DNA from: a virus
DNA length: 28,297 nucleotides
Direction: 5' to 3' (one strand)
IMG/VR virus record: IMGVR_UViG_3300037847_001506
Coordinates: 1 to 28,297 of that record
Positions 1,220-18,966 of the stretch are shown one piece after another (positions within the stretch are counted from its first letter, which is position 1; every line of letters begins with the position of its first letter). A model generated the notes under the pieces. The model was not told the DNA's origin and searched no databases. It saw only the letters and a list, made by a program, of their open reading frames with translations. A program made the position numbers and the translations under genes.

Positions 1220-1395
1220 ATGCCTGCCATTCTCATCATAGATTCATTATGCATACGTTCTTTATCTTGCTCTGCTTTTATCTTAGCTAAATCAACAGCT
1301 TGCCCATACTGACCTGCAAGTGTTGCTGCATCTACATATAGGTCTTGCGCCATCTGATCTCTAGCTAGGTCATCTTTCATCGCCATCTCATGCAT
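1216..1395 (-). CDS. Tiny gene overlapping the portal stop (59 aa), possible detached portal tail
   Basis: The ATG at 1395-1393 lies inside the last codons of the portal gene (ATGCATGA), and the TGA at 1218-1216 overlaps the TTG of the next gene. The 59-residue product is helical and charged, with a middle segment YGQAVDLAKIKAEQDKERM and several Met near the end. Its composition continues the Gln/Ala/Lys-rich helix at the portal C-terminus, and many related portals carry a longer tail of this kind. It may therefore be a split-off extension of the portal, in the +1 frame, or an independent small protein. Tight coupling on both sides supports translation. Function unknown. Confidence 0.65.
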   Translation of the reverse strand: MHEMAMKDDLARDQMAQDLYVDAATLAGQYGQAVDLAKIKAEQDKERMHNESMMRMAGI

Positions 1396-3298
1396 TTTGA
1401 GCTTTAGTCATATCAACTTGTGCTTTTGTTTGCGCTTTCATTGCTTCTGCCTGCACCATAGCTTGCGCTGGGTCAGATGGTTGCTGACCTGCTAATGCCG
1501 CTTGTTGCTGCTGTTGCATCTGCAAGAGTTGCATCTCTATCTCTGGTGTAATTGGCGCGAAATAACGATCTGCATTTCTAATCCCGCTCGATGCTAATAT
1601 GTCTGCAAGAGTGTTGCGGATGTTTGTAAGCGATACTAAGCCATTCATAGGGCCGTATGTCTGATAGACCATAGTTTGCTGTTGCAATGCCATAGCCAGA
1701 GCATTTGTTTTTTCCTCTTCTCTACCAGTGCCTAGACCTACGTTAATGCTAACGTCCATGTCTATGTCAAAAGCTTTTGGATCGACAGGTTGGAAACGCC
1801 CATTCATACGCATCATTGCGCCGTTTTCCATGTTCTTTTGTAGCAATCTTAGCATTAAGCCAAACAAGTCTCTTGCGCCATCTGCTAGGTTACGCACCAT
1901 CACCTCTACCTGCCCTGCTGCGGCCTGCACAGTGGCTTGTACAGCAGCTTTAGTTGTGGACTGCATTGCATCAGGGTCTAGCCCCATAGACGCTCTGGTA
2001 ACGCCTGTCTTGCCCTCTACAAGCTGATCTAGGTATGTAAGTGCGCTTAGTGTTTGCCCTGCGGTAAATGGCACAGCTAAATCCTGTACTGCTCCAGGTT
2101 GCCTCATACGCACAATCGCGCCAATCTCATTATTTAGCACATCGTCTATGTTAACTGAGCCATCAACTATACCAACGCGAGGATTGTTTGTCATAGCTAC
2201 GTTATCGAGTATGCCACGCAGTATGCTTGTTGCTGCGTCTTGGTCATCAATCACAATGTCTGCAATGCTTCTGCCATAAAAGGTGTGCGGCTCTGGATCA
2301 ACTTCAAATTTTGCAAAAGGTATTTCGTCTGCGAGTTCGTAATCTAGCAGTCTGTACTTTGTCCCGCCGCACAAGAACTTGTGTAACACAGCTACGCCTG
2401 TGCCGTCCACATCCATACGCATGTATGCTTCTGTTACAGTAACCTGACGCATAGATGGGTCAGAGCTTGTTTCGTTAAAATCATCTTCATAACCTTGACG
2501 CTCAATACGCTCCGCCTCAGTCATTTCTGTGCCTGCGTCAAAGCTGTCTAGGTCAAGAATTGTTTCTGGGTCAAAACCCATCGCAATCAAATCACCTGCA
2601 CGCATCTCTGTGCGGTGAGCAATAACATGAGCATCTTCTAGCGTTCTACAGTTTCTATCTACAAAGAACTCTTCTGGCGGCACGCTTTCTATACGCAGCC
2701 TGCCTGTAGTTTCTCTGCGCGATACTTTAGCAGAATGAACAGGCGTTTGCACCTCAACGCCTTGCTCATCCATGCTCATTTCCTGCTCGACTGTATGCTC
2801 AAGAACCGTTACGTCATCGTCCTGCACCAAAAACGTGTATTCATCATCGTCTAGGTTAGTGTAGGTATATATCTCTGCGGTAGGCATTTCTTCCCAATAT
2901 GCCTTTACTATGCCTTGCTTTTTAATTAGCGCATCGTGAAAAGCATCGTTTAGCACTCTGTAGCCGTTGCTTCTCTGAAACTCATAATGCACATAATCTG
3001 TGGCTTGCTCTGCCATATTCACATCTTCTGGGCCATGCGGCATAAACTCTACAGGCTTTGCAGTGCTTAGAAATACACGCATCAATGATGGTTTAATCGC
3101 ACGCACCGTATCTCGAACCTTAGTAGCGACTACTTTGCTTCGACCATCCTCGTAGCCTATATCTACCTCACCATCGTAGTAACGTTGCGATCTAATGCGA
3201 TCTTCTGATATTTCGCTTTCTACAAAGTCTACCGCATCGTCTATAGCGTTCTGAACAATAGTCTCTATCTCGCGTTCTGTTTTTGCTTTTAGTTCCAT
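1388..3298 (-). CDS. Portal protein (636 aa)
   Basis: The portal is the dodecameric ring at one capsid vertex through which the terminase packages DNA and to which the tail attaches. The N-terminus is helical and acidic, with RYYDGEVDIGYEDGRSKVV near residues 39-57 and a conserved-type KPSLMRVFLSTAKPVEFMP near 89-107. The middle contains the FEVDPEPHTFYGRSIADIV segment and a long helical stem region with TRASMGLDPDAMQS. The last 50 residues are Gln/Ala-rich and coiled-coil-like, as in the C-terminal barrel tails of P22-type portals. The length lies between T7-like (about 540) and P22-like (725) portals. The ATG directly abuts the TAG of the 537-aa gene, and the next gene overlaps its stop. 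The role follows from sequence character and from its place before the scaffold. Confidence 0.88.
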   Translation of the reverse strand: MELKAKTEREIETIVQNAIDDAVDFVESEISEDRIRSQRYYDGEVDIGYEDGRSKVVATKVRDTVRAIKPSLMRVFLSTAKPVEFMPHGPEDVNMAEQATDYVHYEFQRSNGYRVLNDAFHDALIKKQGIVKAYWEEMPTAEIYTYTNLDDDEYTFLVQDDDVTVLEHTVEQEMSMDEQGVEVQTPVHSAKVSRRETTGRLRIESVPPEEFFVDRNCRTLEDAHVIAHRTEMRAGDLIAMGFDPETILDLDSFDAGTEMTEAERIERQGYEDDFNETSSDPSMRQVTVTEAYMRMDVDGTGVAVLHKFLCGGTKYRLLDYELADEIPFAKFEVDPEPHTFYGRSIADIVIDDQDAATSILRGILDNVAMTNNPRVGIVDGSVNIDDVLNNEIGAIVRMRQPGAVQDLAVPFTAGQTLSALTYLDQLVEGKTGVTRASMGLDPDAMQSTTKAAVQATVQAAAGQVEVMVRNLADGARDLFGLMLRLLQKNMENGAMMRMNGRFQPVDPKAFDIDMDVSINVGLGTGREEEKTNALAMALQQQTMVYQTYGPMNGLVSLTNIRNTLADILASSGIRNADRYFAPITPEIEMQLLQMQQQQQAALAGQQPSDPAQAMVQAEAMKAQTKAQVDMTKAQNA

Positions 3299-7704: not shown

Positions 7705-8052
7705 TTAATATGTAGACAGTGCTACCCTCTTCCAAATTGCTGTACTGCCATCGTGTGTAGCCGTACAAATATAAATATAATTAGTATCCCAAGCTATCAT
7801 GCCAGCATCATCACCAGCCGCACCGACACTCGAACTAGGTGTTGTCTGTTTCATAGCAACTTGCTTAAAAGCGTTCTGTGCTGACACAACAGGGTAATTC
7901 TTGTTTTCATCCCATAAAAATATACCATTTTCGCTAGGATTATCCTCTGTTGTCTTATGATATAGCTTACCTAAATTTCGTGTAAGAAACAGATTTAGCT
8001 GTCTGCCCCACTGCCTTATGTCTTCGCCAAGAATAGGTGGTGTAACTGGCAT
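7705..8052 (-). CDS. Small tail-region protein (115 aa)
   Basis: The ATG at 8052-8050 shares one base with the tail-hub stop codon (TAATG), so translation is coupled to the hub. The N-terminus contains GEDIRQWGRQLNLFLTRNL, likely a helix. The second half looks like a small beta domain with IAWDTNYIYICTATHDGSTAIWKRV, a pattern found at the tips of phage fibre and tail proteins where a Trp-containing strand closes the unit. This may be a small tail appendage or needle-like subunit. No specific family is recognised. Confidence 0.65.
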   Translation of the reverse strand: MPVTPPILGEDIRQWGRQLNLFLTRNLGKLYHKTTEDNPSENGIFLWDENKNYPVVSAQNAFKQVAMKQTTPSSSVGAAGDDAGMIAWDTNYIYICTATHDGSTAIWKRVALSTY

Positions 8053-11000
8053 TAGCGCCTACCCCCTGCCTTAACGTCTAATCTCATAACGCCTACACGC
8101 CAATCTGTAGCCTGATCACCTTCAACGCGCATTTTAACCTGTCTGCCAGTAAATCTTACTGACGTTGGGTTAGAAGGGTTAAATGGGCCAAAAGTACGTT
8201 CTGTATCGTTAGGATGAAATCGTGTCTTAAATTTTAAATCTACGTCACCTTGAGTTTTTTCATCCGTTATAACTTCAGTAACTTTTGCAACCTGATCACC
8301 GTTAACAATGCTTACTGGCCCTGTTTCGCAGAAAATAGACGAACCCTCGTAGTTAAAACCTATTTCATGGTTCATAATATCCGTCTTTGCACCGTGTTTA
8401 GCCATGAATGGATATGCAAAAACACCGCGACTTACGCCTGACGTTCTTGATAAATTACCTATTAGCCAGTGATTATCTTTGAAATCATAAGCTACATAAC
8501 GATCTATTTCTGTAGATCCAGACGAACAGTAAAACCACCAAATTTCGTTGTTTGCACCATTGACCATACCCCACACTTTGGACTGTTGTGCCTGGTTAAA
8601 GTCATTAAATACATAATCATGAACATCACAGTTTAGTGTTTGTACGCTGTTACCATCGAAGTAATGAAAGTTTTCCTGACCGTACCAAAATGCACCTTGG
8701 TCAGTTGCTACCGCACTAAGCCTAGATACAGCACCACAATTTGTTCCTACACGTTGAAATGAATAAACATAAGGTGGAGCAATGTATTGCGCCATGTGAG
8801 CATCAGTATCAGTAATAATTAAGGTAACGCCTCTTGTTCTAACGCCGCACATAATCTGACCGCTTGTGGCAAGCTCTATATCTCCTGCCTCATTTGTTGC
8901 GGCTGGCGTCCACTGTGTATTGTTTTCTTTATCGCACCACTGAACTTTACGACTATTACCGCCAGCACCTAATGCAAAGATAAAGCGTTCTTCTGTTACA
9001 ACTAATCCTTTATTGTTAATAGGTGCGTTTGCTATTGGTTCTGCAACAGTCTTTTTCTTTAATGAGATATTATCAATATCAAAATTTGGTGTGTTATAAG
9101 CTTGCGGTATTATCTCTATTTTTACCGCCGTATCATCTGCACCAAATCTAAAGATATTTGACCCAACAGCTAGAGTTTCGTGAACATGAACCGTTGTGCT
9201 AGTTGTGCCAGTAACCTTGATTTTGACGTTAGGAACAGTGCTTGCGTCACTATCATCATTAGGGTCTATCAAATCAACGGTAACATCGTAGCTGTCTTGT
9301 ATGTCAGGCGTAACAACTAGACCGCTTACTGTTTGATCTAAATTACCAAAGTTAAGTCTTTGCAGTTGATGCGTAGAGCCAATGTCTTGCCTAATTACAT
9401 GGCTTGACCCAATGTCTAAATCAAAAGAATGATTAGTGCCTAATGATCCTGCAGGAGCCGTAAGGTTGATTGCAGAGCCGCCAGACGTTGCTGCTAGTTG
9501 AAATGTGTCCGTTGTTGCCCCTACAACAAAATAATTTGTTCCTGTTGTTAAGCCACCTATGTTTGTGCCGCCACCATTAGAATAAGTAACCTCGTTTCCG
9601 TTAGCTAAACCATGACCAGCAATTGTAATTGTTTCTGTATTGTAATCTATAGGAGCAACCGCAGATGCAGCGACAGTAGTAATAGTATTACCCATCCCTG
9701 CACCATGAACCGAACAAACGTAGGTCAAACCACTAGCAGGAGCATTTGCTGGAACAGCGAAGGTAACACTTGCGCCAGACGTTCCTGCCGTTCCTGTTGT
9801 TGTAACTCCTGTGGTATAACTTGCACCACCATTTTGAAAAACTAACGGATGTCCACTATTAGAAGCATCGGACATATCAAAAGTATATGTTGTACCTCTA
9901 ATTAATGTTAAAACTGGCGCTGTTACGCCATTAAAATGAAACCTGTTAGCACCACCTACATTAGCCACTGTTACTGTATTAGTTGTTGGGCTAACCGAAG
10001 CGCCGTTTGGATCAAAAGAAACATTTAGATCAGCCGTAAGATCTATAGCCGCACCGCCAGACGTTGCTGCTAACTGAAACTCTGTTCCAGAAGCGTTAAT
10101 AATAAAATAGTTAGTATTATTAACCAGACCGCCTATGTCTGTTCCAGATCCGTTAGAATAAGTAACTTTGTCACCATTAGAAAATGTGTTGGACGTTACT
10201 ATTTTATTATTTGTTACATCTTTTACAGCATTATCATCAGCGTCAAAAGTAACTTGCTTGTTTGCTAACAAATTAATAGCAGAGCCACCGCTTGTTGCAG
10301 CAAGCTTAAACGTGTTTGCAGTTGCAGAAACTATGAAATAATTTGTGCCGTTAGTCAGGCCATCTATAGCAGTTTGACCAGTTGGCACGACATAAGTAAC
10401 CTCGTCACCATCTGCAAAGTCATGTCCTGTTATTGTAATTGTGTCGTTTGCCACATCAACAATGGCTGTATCATCTGCATCGAACAATGGCTTGTATTGT
10501 GCATATGCAGCAACACCGCCAGAAATTGACCAGTTAGTACCCTTATTCCAACTAGCATCGGTTGCGTAATCACCATTAGTCACTAACTCAGCGCCAACCG
10601 TTGTTGTCAAATCCCATTCCCAAAGACGCCCATCATCGTTATGAAGACCAACCAAGTTTTCGCCAAAGTTATCTAATTGCCATGTTGTAGCTTCTTGAGG
10701 CACACTATCGCTTGTCACCGCCGCAGGTTGACCATAATAACCTATGCCGTAAAATCCAAACCCGTAACCAGTATTGACCGCCGCATCTTCACGACCAGCC
10801 GCTAAATCGTCAGGCGTAATATCGTAGCAAATTCCTGCACCTGTCATTCCCACTAACTGATCATGTGAGCCACCAGCCACCCATGCAGTACCATCGTTAG
10901 ATTGCCAAGAATGCATACCCCTGACAGGGTTATTAGCAAACGCTGCCTTGCGTGTTGTCCAACCTTTGATTGGCTTTAAACTACCGTCTAACCACCGCAC

Positions 11001-11090
11001 CAAGCTTCCATCACGCCACCGATTTGACGCCTCGAACTCTGTGCCGTTTCTATAAAATCCAGCGGGTAATTTTAAGGGTACTAAAGGCAT
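8052..11090 (-). CDS. P22 gp10-like tail hub (stabilisation) protein with large nested insertions, 1012 aa
   Basis: The outer parts (about residues 1-163 and 680-1012, some 500 residues together) resemble the phage stabilisation family of P22 gp10, which plugs the portal and anchors fibres. Markers are FYRNGTEFEASNRWRDGSLVRW (12-33), VTEERFIFALGAGGNSRKVQWCD (698-720), GVTLIITDTDAHMAQY and an NNEIWWFYCSS segment. The middle is a nested insertion. ELVTNGDYATDASWNKGTNW (168-187) begins a jelly-roll (CBM-like) domain that appears to resume at about 561 (HVIRQDIG) and end near 680. Inside it lie three repeats ending in AATSGG(S/A)AI(N/D)L. Between repeats two and three sits a cupredoxin-like unit (about 385-474). 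Start and stop both overlap neighbours (TAATG). The gp10-type assignment rests on pattern and length; the insertions are read directly. Confidence 0.78.
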   Translation of the reverse strand: MPLVPLKLPAGFYRNGTEFEASNRWRDGSLVRWLDGSLKPIKGWTTRKAAFANNPVRGMHSWQSNDGTAWVAGGSHDQLVGMTGAGICYDITPDDLAAGREDAAVNTGYGFGFYGIGYYGQPAAVTSDSVPQEATTWQLDNFGENLVGLHNDDGRLWEWDLTTTVGAELVTNGDYATDASWNKGTNWSISGGVAAYAQYKPLFDADDTAIVDVANDTITITGHDFADGDEVTYVVPTGQTAIDGLTNGTNYFIVSATANTFKLAATSGGSAINLLANKQVTFDADDNAVKDVTNNKIVTSNTFSNGDKVTYSNGSGTDIGGLVNNTNYFIINASGTEFQLAATSGGAAIDLTADLNVSFDPNGASVSPTTNTVTVANVGGANRFHFNGVTAPVLTLIRGTTYTFDMSDASNSGHPLVFQNGGASYTTGVTTTGTAGTSGASVTFAVPANAPASGLTYVCSVHGAGMGNTITTVAASAVAPIDYNTETITIAGHGLANGNEVTYSNGGGTNIGGLTTGTNYFVVGATTDTFQLAATSGGSAINLTAPAGSLGTNHSFDLDIGSSHVIRQDIGSTHQLQRLNFGNLDQTVSGLVVTPDIQDSYDVTVDLIDPNDDSDASTVPNVKIKVTGTTSTTVHVHETLAVGSNIFRFGADDTAVKIEIIPQAYNTPNFDIDNISLKKKTVAEPIANAPINNKGLVVTEERFIFALGAGGNSRKVQWCDKENNTQWTPAATNEAGDIELATSGQIMCGVRTRGVTLIITDTDAHMAQYIAPPYVYSFQRVGTNCGAVSRLSAVATDQGAFWYGQENFHYFDGNSVQTLNCDVHDYVFNDFNQAQQSKVWGMVNGANNEIWWFYCSSGSTEIDRYVAYDFKDNHWLIGNLSRTSGVSRGVFAYPFMAKHGAKTDIMNHEIGFNYEGSSIFCETGPVSIVNGDQVAKVTEVITDEKTQGDVDLKFKTRFHPNDTERTFGPFNPSNPTSVRFTGRQVKMRVEGDQATDWRVGVMRLDVKAGGRR
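9456..10484 (-). repeat. Triplicated beta-repeat array inside the tail hub gene
   Basis: Residues about 203-545 of the hub contain three related units of roughly 70-80 residues. Each has an opening strand (ITITGHDFADGDEVTY or ITIAGHGLANGNEVTYSN), a GG(L)(T/V)NxTNYF(I/V) centre and an F(K/Q)LAATSGG(S/A)AI end. Units one and two are adjacent (about 203-280 and 282-350), and unit three (about 480-545) follows the cupredoxin-like insert. The corresponding DNA also repeats, for example the stretch coding AATSGG near 10291, 10057 and 9475. This suggests expansion by duplication. Such units are probably protruding beta domains on the hub. Confidence 0.8.
9669..9938 (-). other. Cupredoxin-like domain in the tail hub, with apparent copper ligands
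   Basis: Residues about 385-474 read as a Greek-key beta domain: LTLIRGTTYTFDMSDASN, GHPLVFQ, VTFAVPANAP, then LTYVCSVHGAGMGNTI. The His in GHPL (414) and the C-x2-H-x3-M set (Cys459, His462, Met466) align with the type 1 copper ligands of plastocyanin, whose ligand loop is C-x2-H-x4-M. The loop here is one residue shorter. Related CxxH...M units occur in fibres of marine phages. Copper binding is inferred; a purely structural role is equally possible. Confidence 0.6.
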
Positions 11091-12220
11091 TATGTTGTAG
11101 CTCCGTAAATTGTACCGTTGTTAGTTATACTATAGCTATATCCGTTGTCCTCGATTGCTTTGCCACCAGCGCCACCGCTTGCACCTCTACCAGAACCACC
11201 AGAAGCTCCCCAGCCGCCGCCGCCACCGCCGCCATTATATAATCCGCCAGCGTATTGACCTGCGGTTATTCCTGCGCCGTTACCAGCGTTTCCAGCACTA
11301 CCCCCTGCACCACCAGACGCAGAGTTACCCGTAGCCCCAGTATGACCATTAGTATTACCTGACCAGTTTTGGCTGCTATCTGTAGCATGAAAGTAAGAAT
11401 AATAACCACCAATTCCAGGTAAAATTCTACCACCACCACCGCCTGGAGCGCCACCATTTTGAGCATTTGAGTGTCCGTGACCGCCGCCACCGCCTGAACC
11501 ACCGCCCCAAGCTGCGGCTTGATTGCTACCATAGTAACTATTTGTAATACTTCCACCTGAGGCGTTGAGAACACCACCGTTAGATGTGCTGTTGCCTCCT
11601 CCACTGCCACCGCCAGCGCCGCCCCCACCGCCAGCTACTTTTACATTGTTAGTGTCTGCAAAATAGCGACCACCGCCACCACCGCCGCCTCCACCAGCTA
11701 TGTAAGCGCCAGAGTTTAGAATGATGCTTACGCCTGATGATGTTATGCTAATTGCATTACCACCGTTTTGACCGTTTGTAGCAGATCCACTATTTACTGC
11801 GTCACTTCCTGTGTACCATCCACCATTTCCACCTCTACCAATAACTTTGCCACTTATATTAACAGTGCAAGGTATGTCTACAATCAAAGCAGGAGTGGAA
11901 ATACTATCTGACCATACCCAAAGATTAGAAGGTACATTAAGAGTACCGCCAGATGAAATGTATGTAGATGCAGTAATTTGTTTTAATTGAGCCTGCCCAT
12001 TAATGGTGCTTCCGCTTGTAGGCAGATCAACTTCAGATGCAGCGCCGTAATAATCTGCAAAATCTGTCTCGCTTCCTAAAGTAGAATTAATTGTTCTTCC
12101 TGCGGCTGCTTGCAAGCCTCTAATATCAGTGTCATTCATACTGGCTGTAGTACCAGAAGTGCCTCCTGCCTCTACATGGATGTCGTTAAGACTTATAGCA
12201 CCGCTAGTTTGAAGAGCCAT
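11090..12220 (-). CDS. Polyglycine-rich tail adhesin (376 aa)
   Basis: The N-terminal 60 residues (SGAISLNDIHVEAGGTSGTT, SMNDTDIRGL, DFADYYGA) form a module seen at the start of many marine phage fibre proteins, probably for attachment. Residues 60-125 are a beta domain. Residues 127-355 are extremely Gly-rich, with runs of five to nine Gly (nine at 176-184), interspersed with Ser/Asn and aromatic turns. The end is a short beta tail (SITNNGTIYG). Tail-tip adhesins of the T-even gp38 class fold such runs into packed polyglycine-II helices with variable recognition loops, so this is a good candidate receptor-binding protein. The gene overlaps both neighbours by one base. The link to gp38-like folding is by composition, not clear homology. 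Confidence 0.72.
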   Translation of the reverse strand: MALQTSGAISLNDIHVEAGGTSGTTASMNDTDIRGLQAAAGRTINSTLGSETDFADYYGAASEVDLPTSGSTINGQAQLKQITASTYISSGGTLNVPSNLWVWSDSISTPALIVDIPCTVNISGKVIGRGGNGGWYTGSDAVNSGSATNGQNGGNAISITSSGVSIILNSGAYIAGGGGGGGGGRYFADTNNVKVAGGGGGAGGGSGGGNSTSNGGVLNASGGSITNSYYGSNQAAAWGGGSGGGGGHGHSNAQNGGAPGGGGGRILPGIGGYYSYFHATDSSQNWSGNTNGHTGATGNSASGGAGGSAGNAGNGAGITAGQYAGGLYNGGGGGGGWGASGGSGRGASGGAGGKAIEDNGYSYSITNNGTIYGATT

Positions 12221-14593: not shown

Positions 14594-15529
14594 CTAACCT
14601 AGTAAATATCCACCAAAAAAAGTGTATGCGCTTGATCCATAATAACCGCCTTGTTTATTTTCTACCCGAACTGCATCATTTGCTGACAAAGAAGCTATTG
14701 CTGTTATTGAGGTTGAACGATAGGTACTAGATGTATTTGGCCAACTTTCTTCTGTAACTGCGTATCTTGTACCGTTAATTTTCATATCTGCTCCTACATT
14801 CACTCCTGCTGCACTAAGCACAGTTGTAAACAAAAGATATTTACCTGCGATGGGGGCGGTAAAATTACCTGTGCTTGTACTATAGTGATTGCCCACATTT
14901 ACATCTGCTGTATCAAAAACAATAGTTCCAGTAGTGCCGTGACCTCCAGTCCTTCTAGCATGAAAACAAGGCTGATTAGGCATTGTCACACGGCCTGATG
15001 CATCAATCCTAAATCTTTCAGCCCCAGCGGTTCCATCATAAACAGTAAATGAACTATTTGCCCCTCCAATATCAACACCAGCATAATACGTTCTGTTTGC
15101 ACTTTGGAAGTTCGTGCTTACGCTATTAGAGGCACTGCTTGTCTGCAATGTCATAGAGGAGTTACCAGAAGTTGATATTGACAAGACGCCACTCATAGTA
15201 TCGCCAGTAGTGTTAACGTATCTTGTGTCGGCTGCACTTTTTGTATAGTGATCTGCGCTTTCAAAAGTTAGAAAAGCGGTGATAGTAACCTCATCTCCTA
15301 CGGCTGCACCAGATCCAAGCGTTACCGTAGTTGTCGTCGCGGTATAGTCACTCTCTTCGAGCTTAATACCGTTCATATGAACCATAATATCTGACGGTGA
15401 ACAGGCAAGCGTATTACCGTTTGCATCAGCGCCAGTGAAAGCTGTCTGATTAGCCGTGGCTGTATATGTAAAAATGTTAGCGGATTGTCTGCTAACTACC
15501 TTTGTTGGGCTACTACCGATATAAGCCAT
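14594..15529 (-). CDS. Tail fibre protein with MAYIG head and C1q-like tip (311 aa)
   Basis: There are three modules. Residues 1-95 are an N-terminal beta domain (MAYIGSSPT, IFTYTATANQTAFTG, IMVHMNGIKLEESDYT). Residues about 100-125 are a TRYVNTTGDTMSGVLSIS hinge seen in fibres of T4-like and marine phages. The C-terminal part has a FRIDASGRVTMPNQP connector and a trimeric C1q/TNF-like domain (FTAPIAGKYLLFTTVL, SANDAVRVE, FFGGYLLG). The 155-aa and 232-aa genes further upstream carry the N-terminal and C-terminal modules of this protein separately. It is likely a trimeric fibre for host contact. Confidence 0.8.
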   Translation of the reverse strand: MAYIGSSPTKVVSRQSANIFTYTATANQTAFTGADANGNTLACSPSDIMVHMNGIKLEESDYTATTTTVTLGSGAAVGDEVTITAFLTFESADHYTKSAADTRYVNTTGDTMSGVLSISTSGNSSMTLQTSSASNSVSTNFQSANRTYYAGVDIGGANSSFTVYDGTAGAERFRIDASGRVTMPNQPCFHARRTGGHGTTGTIVFDTADVNVGNHYSTSTGNFTAPIAGKYLLFTTVLSAAGVNVGADMKINGTRYAVTEESWPNTSSTYRSTSITAIASLSANDAVRVENKQGGYYGSSAYTFFGGYLLG

Positions 15530-18267: not shown

Positions 18268-18966
18268 CTAACCTAGTAAACGTCCACTAAAATGATTTTC
18301 GTGAGCATACATACTGAAACTACCAGTGTTTCTATCAGTTGCTACTAATTTAAAAGTGTCATTGGCACTTAAATAGACAACTTCGGTATAATCTATTTGT
18401 GTATGACCGCCATCGTTACCTGTCTGTTCATACCTGTTTCTTATAGAGCTGTTTACATAGCTGTATAAATCTAAATATTCACCTGTTCTAAAGTCATAAA
18501 ACAAAGATTTAAAAGTAAATATGTATTGACCTGCGACTGGTGCAGTGAAAATTCCGTTTGAGCTGTTGTATGAATTAGACTGGTTACTTCTTACTTCATT
18601 AAAAACTAATGTAACAGTGCCAGAGATTGATTGGCTAGAAGTTCTTTTTGCATTAAAGGCTGGCTGGTAAGGATTTGTTACATAGCCTGCATTATCTATC
18701 TTCATGCGCTCTGTGCCAGCAGTTTGAAATGACATTTTAGCATATACGCCACTAGCTTCAGTGTCTTGTGCGTTTAATATTACAGTACCGTCATTTTGAC
18801 CATCTGGGTTTGATGTAGATATTTTAAGACCACGATTTGCTGATCCTGATAAAGTTAAATGTGCGCTATTTGCTCCACCACTAACGCTCAATGCGCCTGT
18901 CATGCTATCGCCAGAGGTATTTACAAACCGTGTTTCACCAGTTGCTAAATCTTTCGACCTACCCAT
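18268..18966 (-). CDS. Fibre made of the GDSMTG hinge and C1q-like tip (232 aa)
   Basis: The protein begins MGRSKDLATGETRFVNTSGDSMTGALSVS, the hinge that is internal in the 311-aa fibre. It continues with a beta shaft (MSFQTAGTERMKIDNAGYVTN) and ends with a C1q/TNF-like tip (NGIFTAPVAGQYIFTFKSL, LSANDTFKLVATDR, HFSGRLLG). The lack of an N-terminal attachment domain is unusual. The ATG follows the TAG of the 110-aa gene directly. It is probably a trimeric receptor-contact protein. Confidence 0.77.
   Translation of the reverse strand: MGRSKDLATGETRFVNTSGDSMTGALSVSGGANSAHLTLSGSANRGLKISTSNPDGQNDGTVILNAQDTEASGVYAKMSFQTAGTERMKIDNAGYVTNPYQPAFNAKRTSSQSISGTVTLVFNEVRSNQSNSYNSSNGIFTAPVAGQYIFTFKSLFYDFRTGEYLDLYSYVNSSIRNRYEQTGNDGGHTQIDYTEVVYLSANDTFKLVATDRNTGSFSMYAHENHFSGRLLG

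Follow-up and report, generated by a model that had tools for sequence, protein, structure and literature searches.

Domains inserted at the tip of short phage tails have been described in several systems. In SU10, four Ig-like nozzle domains of gp17 (PDB 7z4b, 7z47, 7z4f) lie between propeller blades 2 and 3 (PMC9509320). In the crAss001 muzzle protein gp44 (PDB 7qol), the domain IG1 (residues 163-292) also sits between blades 2 and 3, while IG2 lies in blade 3 and itself carries one or more further inserted domains; its authors note that muzzle length varies through inserts (PMC10172136). T7 gp12 reaches its nozzle tip through a loop of blade 3 (PMC6702177). P22 gp10 (471 aa, PDB 8eap) and the hub of Pa223 (513 aa, PDB 9nwi; named in PMC13299392) have the same core fold as the protein studied here, but neither has a comparable insert. 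The nozzle fold and the site of the tip domains are therefore already known. What we describe here is a predicted cupredoxin, the domain of copper proteins, that forms an exchangeable module of the nozzle and recurs, conserved, in the tails of marine phages; we found no precedent for it in the open-licence literature.

A podoviral tail hub with a separable insert

The window, that is the whole stretch of DNA analysed, is a 28.3-kb IMG/VR virus fragment that encodes an SU10-type portal (1388-3298), ejection-like proteins, terminase genes and several fibre-like proteins. The hub gene, an uninterrupted open reading frame of 1012 codons on the minus strand, sits amid the portal, ejection and tail genes; positions 9456-10484, to which the initial annotation had drawn attention, encode its residues 203-545. 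The features are listed from the 5' end of the gene, with the basis of each assignment.

8052-11090, minus strand: tail hub/nozzle gene, 1012 aa (open reading frame, phrog_3287 at E 4e-71, fold matches)
10608-11090, minus strand: N-terminal part of the hub core, residues 1-161, platform start and propeller blades 1-2 (alignment to relatives, fold)
9066-10607, minus strand: whole insert, residues 162-675, missing in many relatives (comparison with relatives)
10482-10607, minus strand: outer beta-sandwich, N-terminal piece, residues 162-203 (model strands, phrog_30593)
10254-10481, minus strand: beta repeat 1, residues 204-279 (repeat alignment)
10023-10253, minus strand: beta repeat 2, residues 280-356 (repeat alignment)
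9993-10022, minus strand: first strand of beta repeat 3, residues 357-366, severed by the cupredoxin (comparison with L104)
9669-9992, minus strand: predicted cupredoxin domain, residues 367-474, with H414, C459, H462 and M466 (fold, ligand conservation)
9435-9668, minus strand: remainder of beta repeat 3, residues 475-552 (repeat alignment, comparison with L104)
9360-9434, minus strand: short repeats of about 10 residues, IGSxHxxxxD, residues 553-577 (sequence)
9066-9359, minus strand: outer beta-sandwich, C-terminal piece, residues 578-675 (model strands, phrog_30593)
8055-9065, minus strand: C-terminal part of the hub core, residues 676-1012, propeller blades 3-7 and platform (phrog_3287, fold, profile)
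8376-8396, minus strand: loop, residues ~899-905, empty in the window and the site of a second cupredoxin in relatives (alignment)

Both sequence and fold identify the 1012-aa protein as a podoviral tail hub/nozzle. The outer parts account for the phrog_3287 match, and a profile search of solved structures returned the Pa223 hub (9nwi_Y, E 1.2e-23) and the VP1 nozzle (E 1.6e-14). We modelled the full chain with AlphaFold2 on 33 relatives (mean pLDDT 83.2, pTM 0.58); at this pTM, the placement of the insert relative to the hub is not fixed by the model. The predicted core is a propeller-platform fold, with Z scores of 24-32 against the hubs of Pa223, SU10, VP1, P22, Sf6 and Pam1. The individual alignments gave Z 31.7 over 452 residues for the Pa223 hub 9nwi_Y, Z 29.2 over 453 residues for the SU10 nozzle, Z 26.1 over 425 residues for the crAss001 muzzle, and Z 27.0 over 404 of the 471 residues of P22 gp10 (rmsd 3.1), in agreement with the initial annotation, which had proposed a gp10-type hub in the outer parts. 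In Pfam at E<=1, no gp10 family was matched and the sole match was a chance one, Cpn10 to repeat 2 (E 0.23); the protein thus has the gp10 fold without being filed in a gp10 Pfam family. By analogy with its relatives, the hub probably forms a hexamer.

The closest hub among annotated phages is that of Octadecabacter Antarctic DB virus 2, whose gene lies amid tail genes and upstream of the portal gene; this 492-aa protein is 52% identical and aligns with just the two ends of the 1012-aa protein. Immediately upstream of the window's hub gene lies a gene for a glycine-rich protein of 376 aa (11090-12220, minus strand), which matches the GP38 adhesin weakly and also phrog_2056, a host-specificity fibre family, and is possibly a receptor-binding partner of the hub. 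Two separate proteins further along (14594-15529 and 18268-18966, minus strand) both contain a C-terminal domain of family phrog_15750. In two of the other contigs, L028 (4413-7521) and L047 (439-1929), the hub gene is in two open reading frames, through either a true split or a sequencing error.

We scanned viral contigs for relatives and obtained 79 loci, more than half of which encode hubs of about 490-510 aa that lack the insert, which is the size expected by the initial annotation for a hub without its middle part (about 500 residues). The entire difference falls at residues ~162-675, and the flanking hub residues are continuous in the insert-free relatives. In L030, for instance, the core is ~70% identical to that of the window and a short linker replaces the insert; a viral hub of 493 aa without the insert superposes on the model with a TM score of 0.94, taken relative to the length of that hub. 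The insert is hence dispensable to the core, as had been proposed. Across relatives, the insert is anywhere from 10 to over 1000 residues long, and the architecture is common to many independent contigs, which rules out an assembly artefact.

The model places eight propeller strands (44-52, 56-63, 69-75, 79-83, 88-90, 137-142, 145-150 and 156-159) between the N-terminal platform strands and the insert. Judged by this strand count, the insert is predicted to come after the eighth propeller strand, at the junction of blades 2 and 3. This site is canonical, since the tip domains of SU10 and crAss001 lie between blades 2 and 3 and the T7 gp12 loop lies in blade 3. The SU10 nozzle is a close counterpart: it shares with our protein the propeller-platform core, the multi-domain beta insert at blades 2/3 and, within the phage, the type of portal, whereas its insert is Ig-like, and the sections of PMC9509320 consulted describe neither a cupredoxin nor tandem repeats. 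crAss001 gp44 shares the core, an insert starting from residue 163 and nested insertion, but its domains are Ig-like and of the crass fold, and the host of the nesting is IG2, in blade 3.

The suggestion that the hub is a platform that accepts additional domains was borne out, since relatives carry inserts near residues 47, 93, 161 and 905. A second cupredoxin is found near residue 905 in eight loci (L020, L026, L027, L028, L072, L105, L106 and L110), and L075 and L077 have an insert of ~65 residues near residue 47. In the model, residue 905 is part of a hairpin that belongs to the last propeller blade, and this hairpin may be near or equivalent to the position of the fibre dock loop at the edge of blade 1 in SU10 (PMC9509320). 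The marine or lake isolates HTVC027P, CRP-901 and DSL-LC04 (L115, L116 and L117) have an insert resembling the beta repeats after residue ~93; it follows a DITP motif, at a hub position different from that of the window.

Nesting and turnover of the inserted units

The initial annotation had read the insert as nested, in the order hub, outer domain, repeats and cupredoxin, and each layer found a comparator. The first level, a hub without the insert, is provided by L030 and many other natural hubs. For the second level, we rejoined the two halves of the outer domain after removal of the array, and the joined sequence matches phrog_30593 across the join (over its residues 7-53, with 6.7e-8 as the best E for a family member). 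We looked among the loci for a hub with the outer domain but without the array and found none, and this level of nesting is the weakest-supported of the three. For the third level, the insert of L104 aligns end to end with that of the window except for window residues ~361-474. This gap follows the first strand of repeat 3, implying that the cupredoxin lies inside repeat 3, and it shows in addition that the cupredoxin is not essential to the insert. The layers proposed initially therefore stand with slightly shifted boundaries (insert 162-675, array 204-552, and cupredoxin 367-474 instead of 385-474). The nesting itself stands too, but its rarity had been overstated, inserts at blades 2/3 being known from crAss001 (PMC10172136) and SU10 (PMC9509320), and nested insertion from the crAss001 nozzle as well.

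The strands of the outer domain in the full-chain model fit a beta-sandwich, as had been suggested. Its proposed carbohydrate-binding identity is not supported: the rejoined domain gave no CBM family and no useful match in Pfam, the PDB or phage records. The three repeats, of ~77 aa each, are 51-60% identical and align with scores of 160-190, against a mean near -6 (SD about 11) and a maximum of 38 for shuffled sequences; the DNA repeats D3, D4, D6 and D7 agree with them. These beta repeats match tail and baseplate PHROGs, and their match to E1_FCCH (PF16190; E 0.12, 12.9 bits) falls below the curated cut-off of 29.5. The short IGSxHxxxxD repeats are present in three copies between repeat 3 and the outer domain, and more copies occur in L018 and L103, which have long arrays.

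To follow the insert across lineages, we built a tree from the hub cores with the insert left out. On this tree the insert state needs two changes, and a single insert-bearing clade is rejected (AU p 2.6e-52): L104, which has the insert and is the one contig that represents the second insert-bearing lineage, groups as sister to L112, a hub without the insert. Between L104 and the window, identity is 57.6% for the hub and 64.9% for the outer domain; within the window's clade the relation is usually the opposite, the outer domain diverging more than the hub. The simplest reading of these sequence comparisons is that the insert was transferred between hub lineages, repeated loss being the alternative. 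Units also turn over within the insert. L005 and L014 differ by one clean in-frame cupredoxin unit of 339 nt, while the rest of the gene is 89-99% identical, and this extra cupredoxin is 74.5% identical to that of L018 and 48.6% identical to its own neighbour. Arrays span from three repeats and no cupredoxin in L104 to many repeats in L018 and L103, whose hubs reach ~1460-1540 aa. The insert thus appears to be a mobile and variable cassette that occurs in two hub lineages and whose units vary between near-identical phages, a finding that is new here.

The predicted cupredoxin fold and its putative ligand set

Residues 367-474 modelled alone gave a confident prediction (pLDDT 96.3, pTM 0.87). 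The best fold match is the N-terminal cupredoxin of the three-domain nitrite reductase of Hyphomicrobium (2dv6; Z 10.4, rmsd 2.2 over 97 residues), and all 50 fold matches listed are cupredoxin-containing enzymes, namely nitrite reductases, laccases (among them small laccases) and a multicopper oxidase; Foldseek also matched rusticyanin and amicyanin. In type-1 copper proteins the ligands follow the order H, C-x2-H, M, and the window has His, Cys, His and Met in that same order. In contrast to known cupredoxins, the domain is embedded in a phage tail protein. It gave no significant sequence match to known cupredoxin families and no Pfam copper-binding family, plastocyanin scoring E about 0.6; for this reason its membership rests on the predicted fold and on the ligands. 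Weak matches of the CxxHG..MG end to superoxide reductase (desulfoferrodoxin; Pfam best E 0.038, PDB E 0.12) were also weighed. This identity is disfavoured, since cupredoxins lead the fold matches and the domain retains its Met; the fold matches listed do not include superoxide reductase, an absence that proves nothing alone.

The initial annotation had missed that the metal-ligand set is conserved. We compared 49 distinct domains, some of them from tail proteins of cyanophages, pelagiphages and a methylophage; in every case that could be scored, H414, C459, H462 and M466 are invariant. To avoid selecting for the ligands, we also searched with the first 40 residues of the domain, which contain none of the four, and found at least 379 stretches that encode a relative. 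Among the 71 distinct domains drawn from the best 80 of these, 70 keep His and Cys-x2-His-(x2-4)-Met, and domains as little as 32% identical still keep the ligands. The exception, a cupredoxin of L177 (start near 1501), has lost all four at once, and a metal site would be expected to disappear in just this all-or-none way. This pattern of conservation argues that the ligands are under strong selection and that the domain most likely binds copper in the virion.

We found the domain in 97 phage records, nearly all of which have names that point to the sea, and its carriers include phages of Pelagibacter, Prochlorococcus, Synechococcus and Methylophilales. Among the PHROGs, it was found in families annotated as tail fibre, baseplate wedge and virion structural protein; the second His and the Met are separated by three residues in the window and by two in the tail-fibre form. 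A search of the open-licence literature returned no paper linking cupredoxin or plastocyanin-like domains with phage tails, and the paper on viral nirK deals with a metabolic gene, not a tail domain. The nearest published idea is that of the iron-binding HxH tail fibres and their Trojan Horse role (PMC11705849): there too, a metal is carried on a marine phage tail and possibly serves in host contact, but the iron is held by pairs of His in a trimeric fibre that has no cupredoxin site.

Roles considered for the nozzle extension

We propose that the hub/nozzle protein, which closes the short podoviral tail, has a conserved propeller and platform core that carries an interchangeable nozzle extension at the opening between blades 2 and 3. 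The extension would consist of a root beta-sandwich, then a stalk of beta repeats, plus the cupredoxin unit, and by analogy with SU10 and crAss001 its six copies may project around or beyond the tail tip. It appears to move between phage lineages, its units come and go in the exchanges described above, and as a set of exposed surface modules it may meet the cell envelope. The cupredoxin would bind copper in the virion and would most likely make contacts during adsorption, as a module that the metal stabilises or that depends on the metal. Taken as a whole, an interchangeable nozzle extension with a metal-binding cupredoxin is the account that we consider probable, with moderate confidence.

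An unlikely but serious alternative is that the insert is an ordinary structural extension of the nozzle as in SU10, which would rearrange on adsorption and lengthen the DNA exit channel; the cupredoxin would then be a stable beta-sandwich brick, and its H/C/H/M residues would coordinate either a metal with a structural part or no metal at all. The site shared with the tip domains of crAss001 (PMC10172136) and SU10 (PMC9509320) fits this explanation, as do the Ig-sized beta units of the array and the existence of the cupredoxin-free array of L104. However, four chemically specific residues are retained together in an alignment whose other columns mostly vary, and the range in insert length is odd for a precisely fitted channel.

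Rather unlikely in our estimation, and tentative, is the stronger proposal that marine phage tails carry working type-1 copper centres (in nozzles, fibres and baseplates), either as a metal- or redox-dependent trigger of attachment or DNA release or to engage copper-handling proteins of the host surface. This would be the equivalent, for copper, of the Trojan Horse idea put forward for iron.

More doubtful still is an adhesin for glycans or another receptor, in which the outer beta-sandwich would bind a surface sugar, the repeats would be a spacer and the cupredoxin fold would be reused as an Ig-like surface for binding, in which metal plays no part. Turnover and exchange are typical of adhesins, the modules are common to tail-fibre families and fibre-like genes lie nearby, but the outer domain matches no carbohydrate-binding family and the persistence of the ligands at low identity is unexplained without a metal. 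Finally, the idea that residues 203-550 are integral to the hub core, the apparent nesting being one elongated fold, is highly improbable: nothing was found in its favour beyond the uninterrupted reading frame, and it is refuted by the many natural hubs without the whole insert and by a core that aligns to solved hubs without it.

For the interchangeable, metal-binding extension that we favour, the natural pairs with and without each unit offer a clean system for the function of tail-tip domains, and the copper claim can be reduced to one small domain and its ligand mutants. If the cupredoxin does bind copper, phages would make up a population of copper-binding particles in the ocean that has so far gone uncounted, and the infection of major marine hosts could be influenced by metal or redox state.
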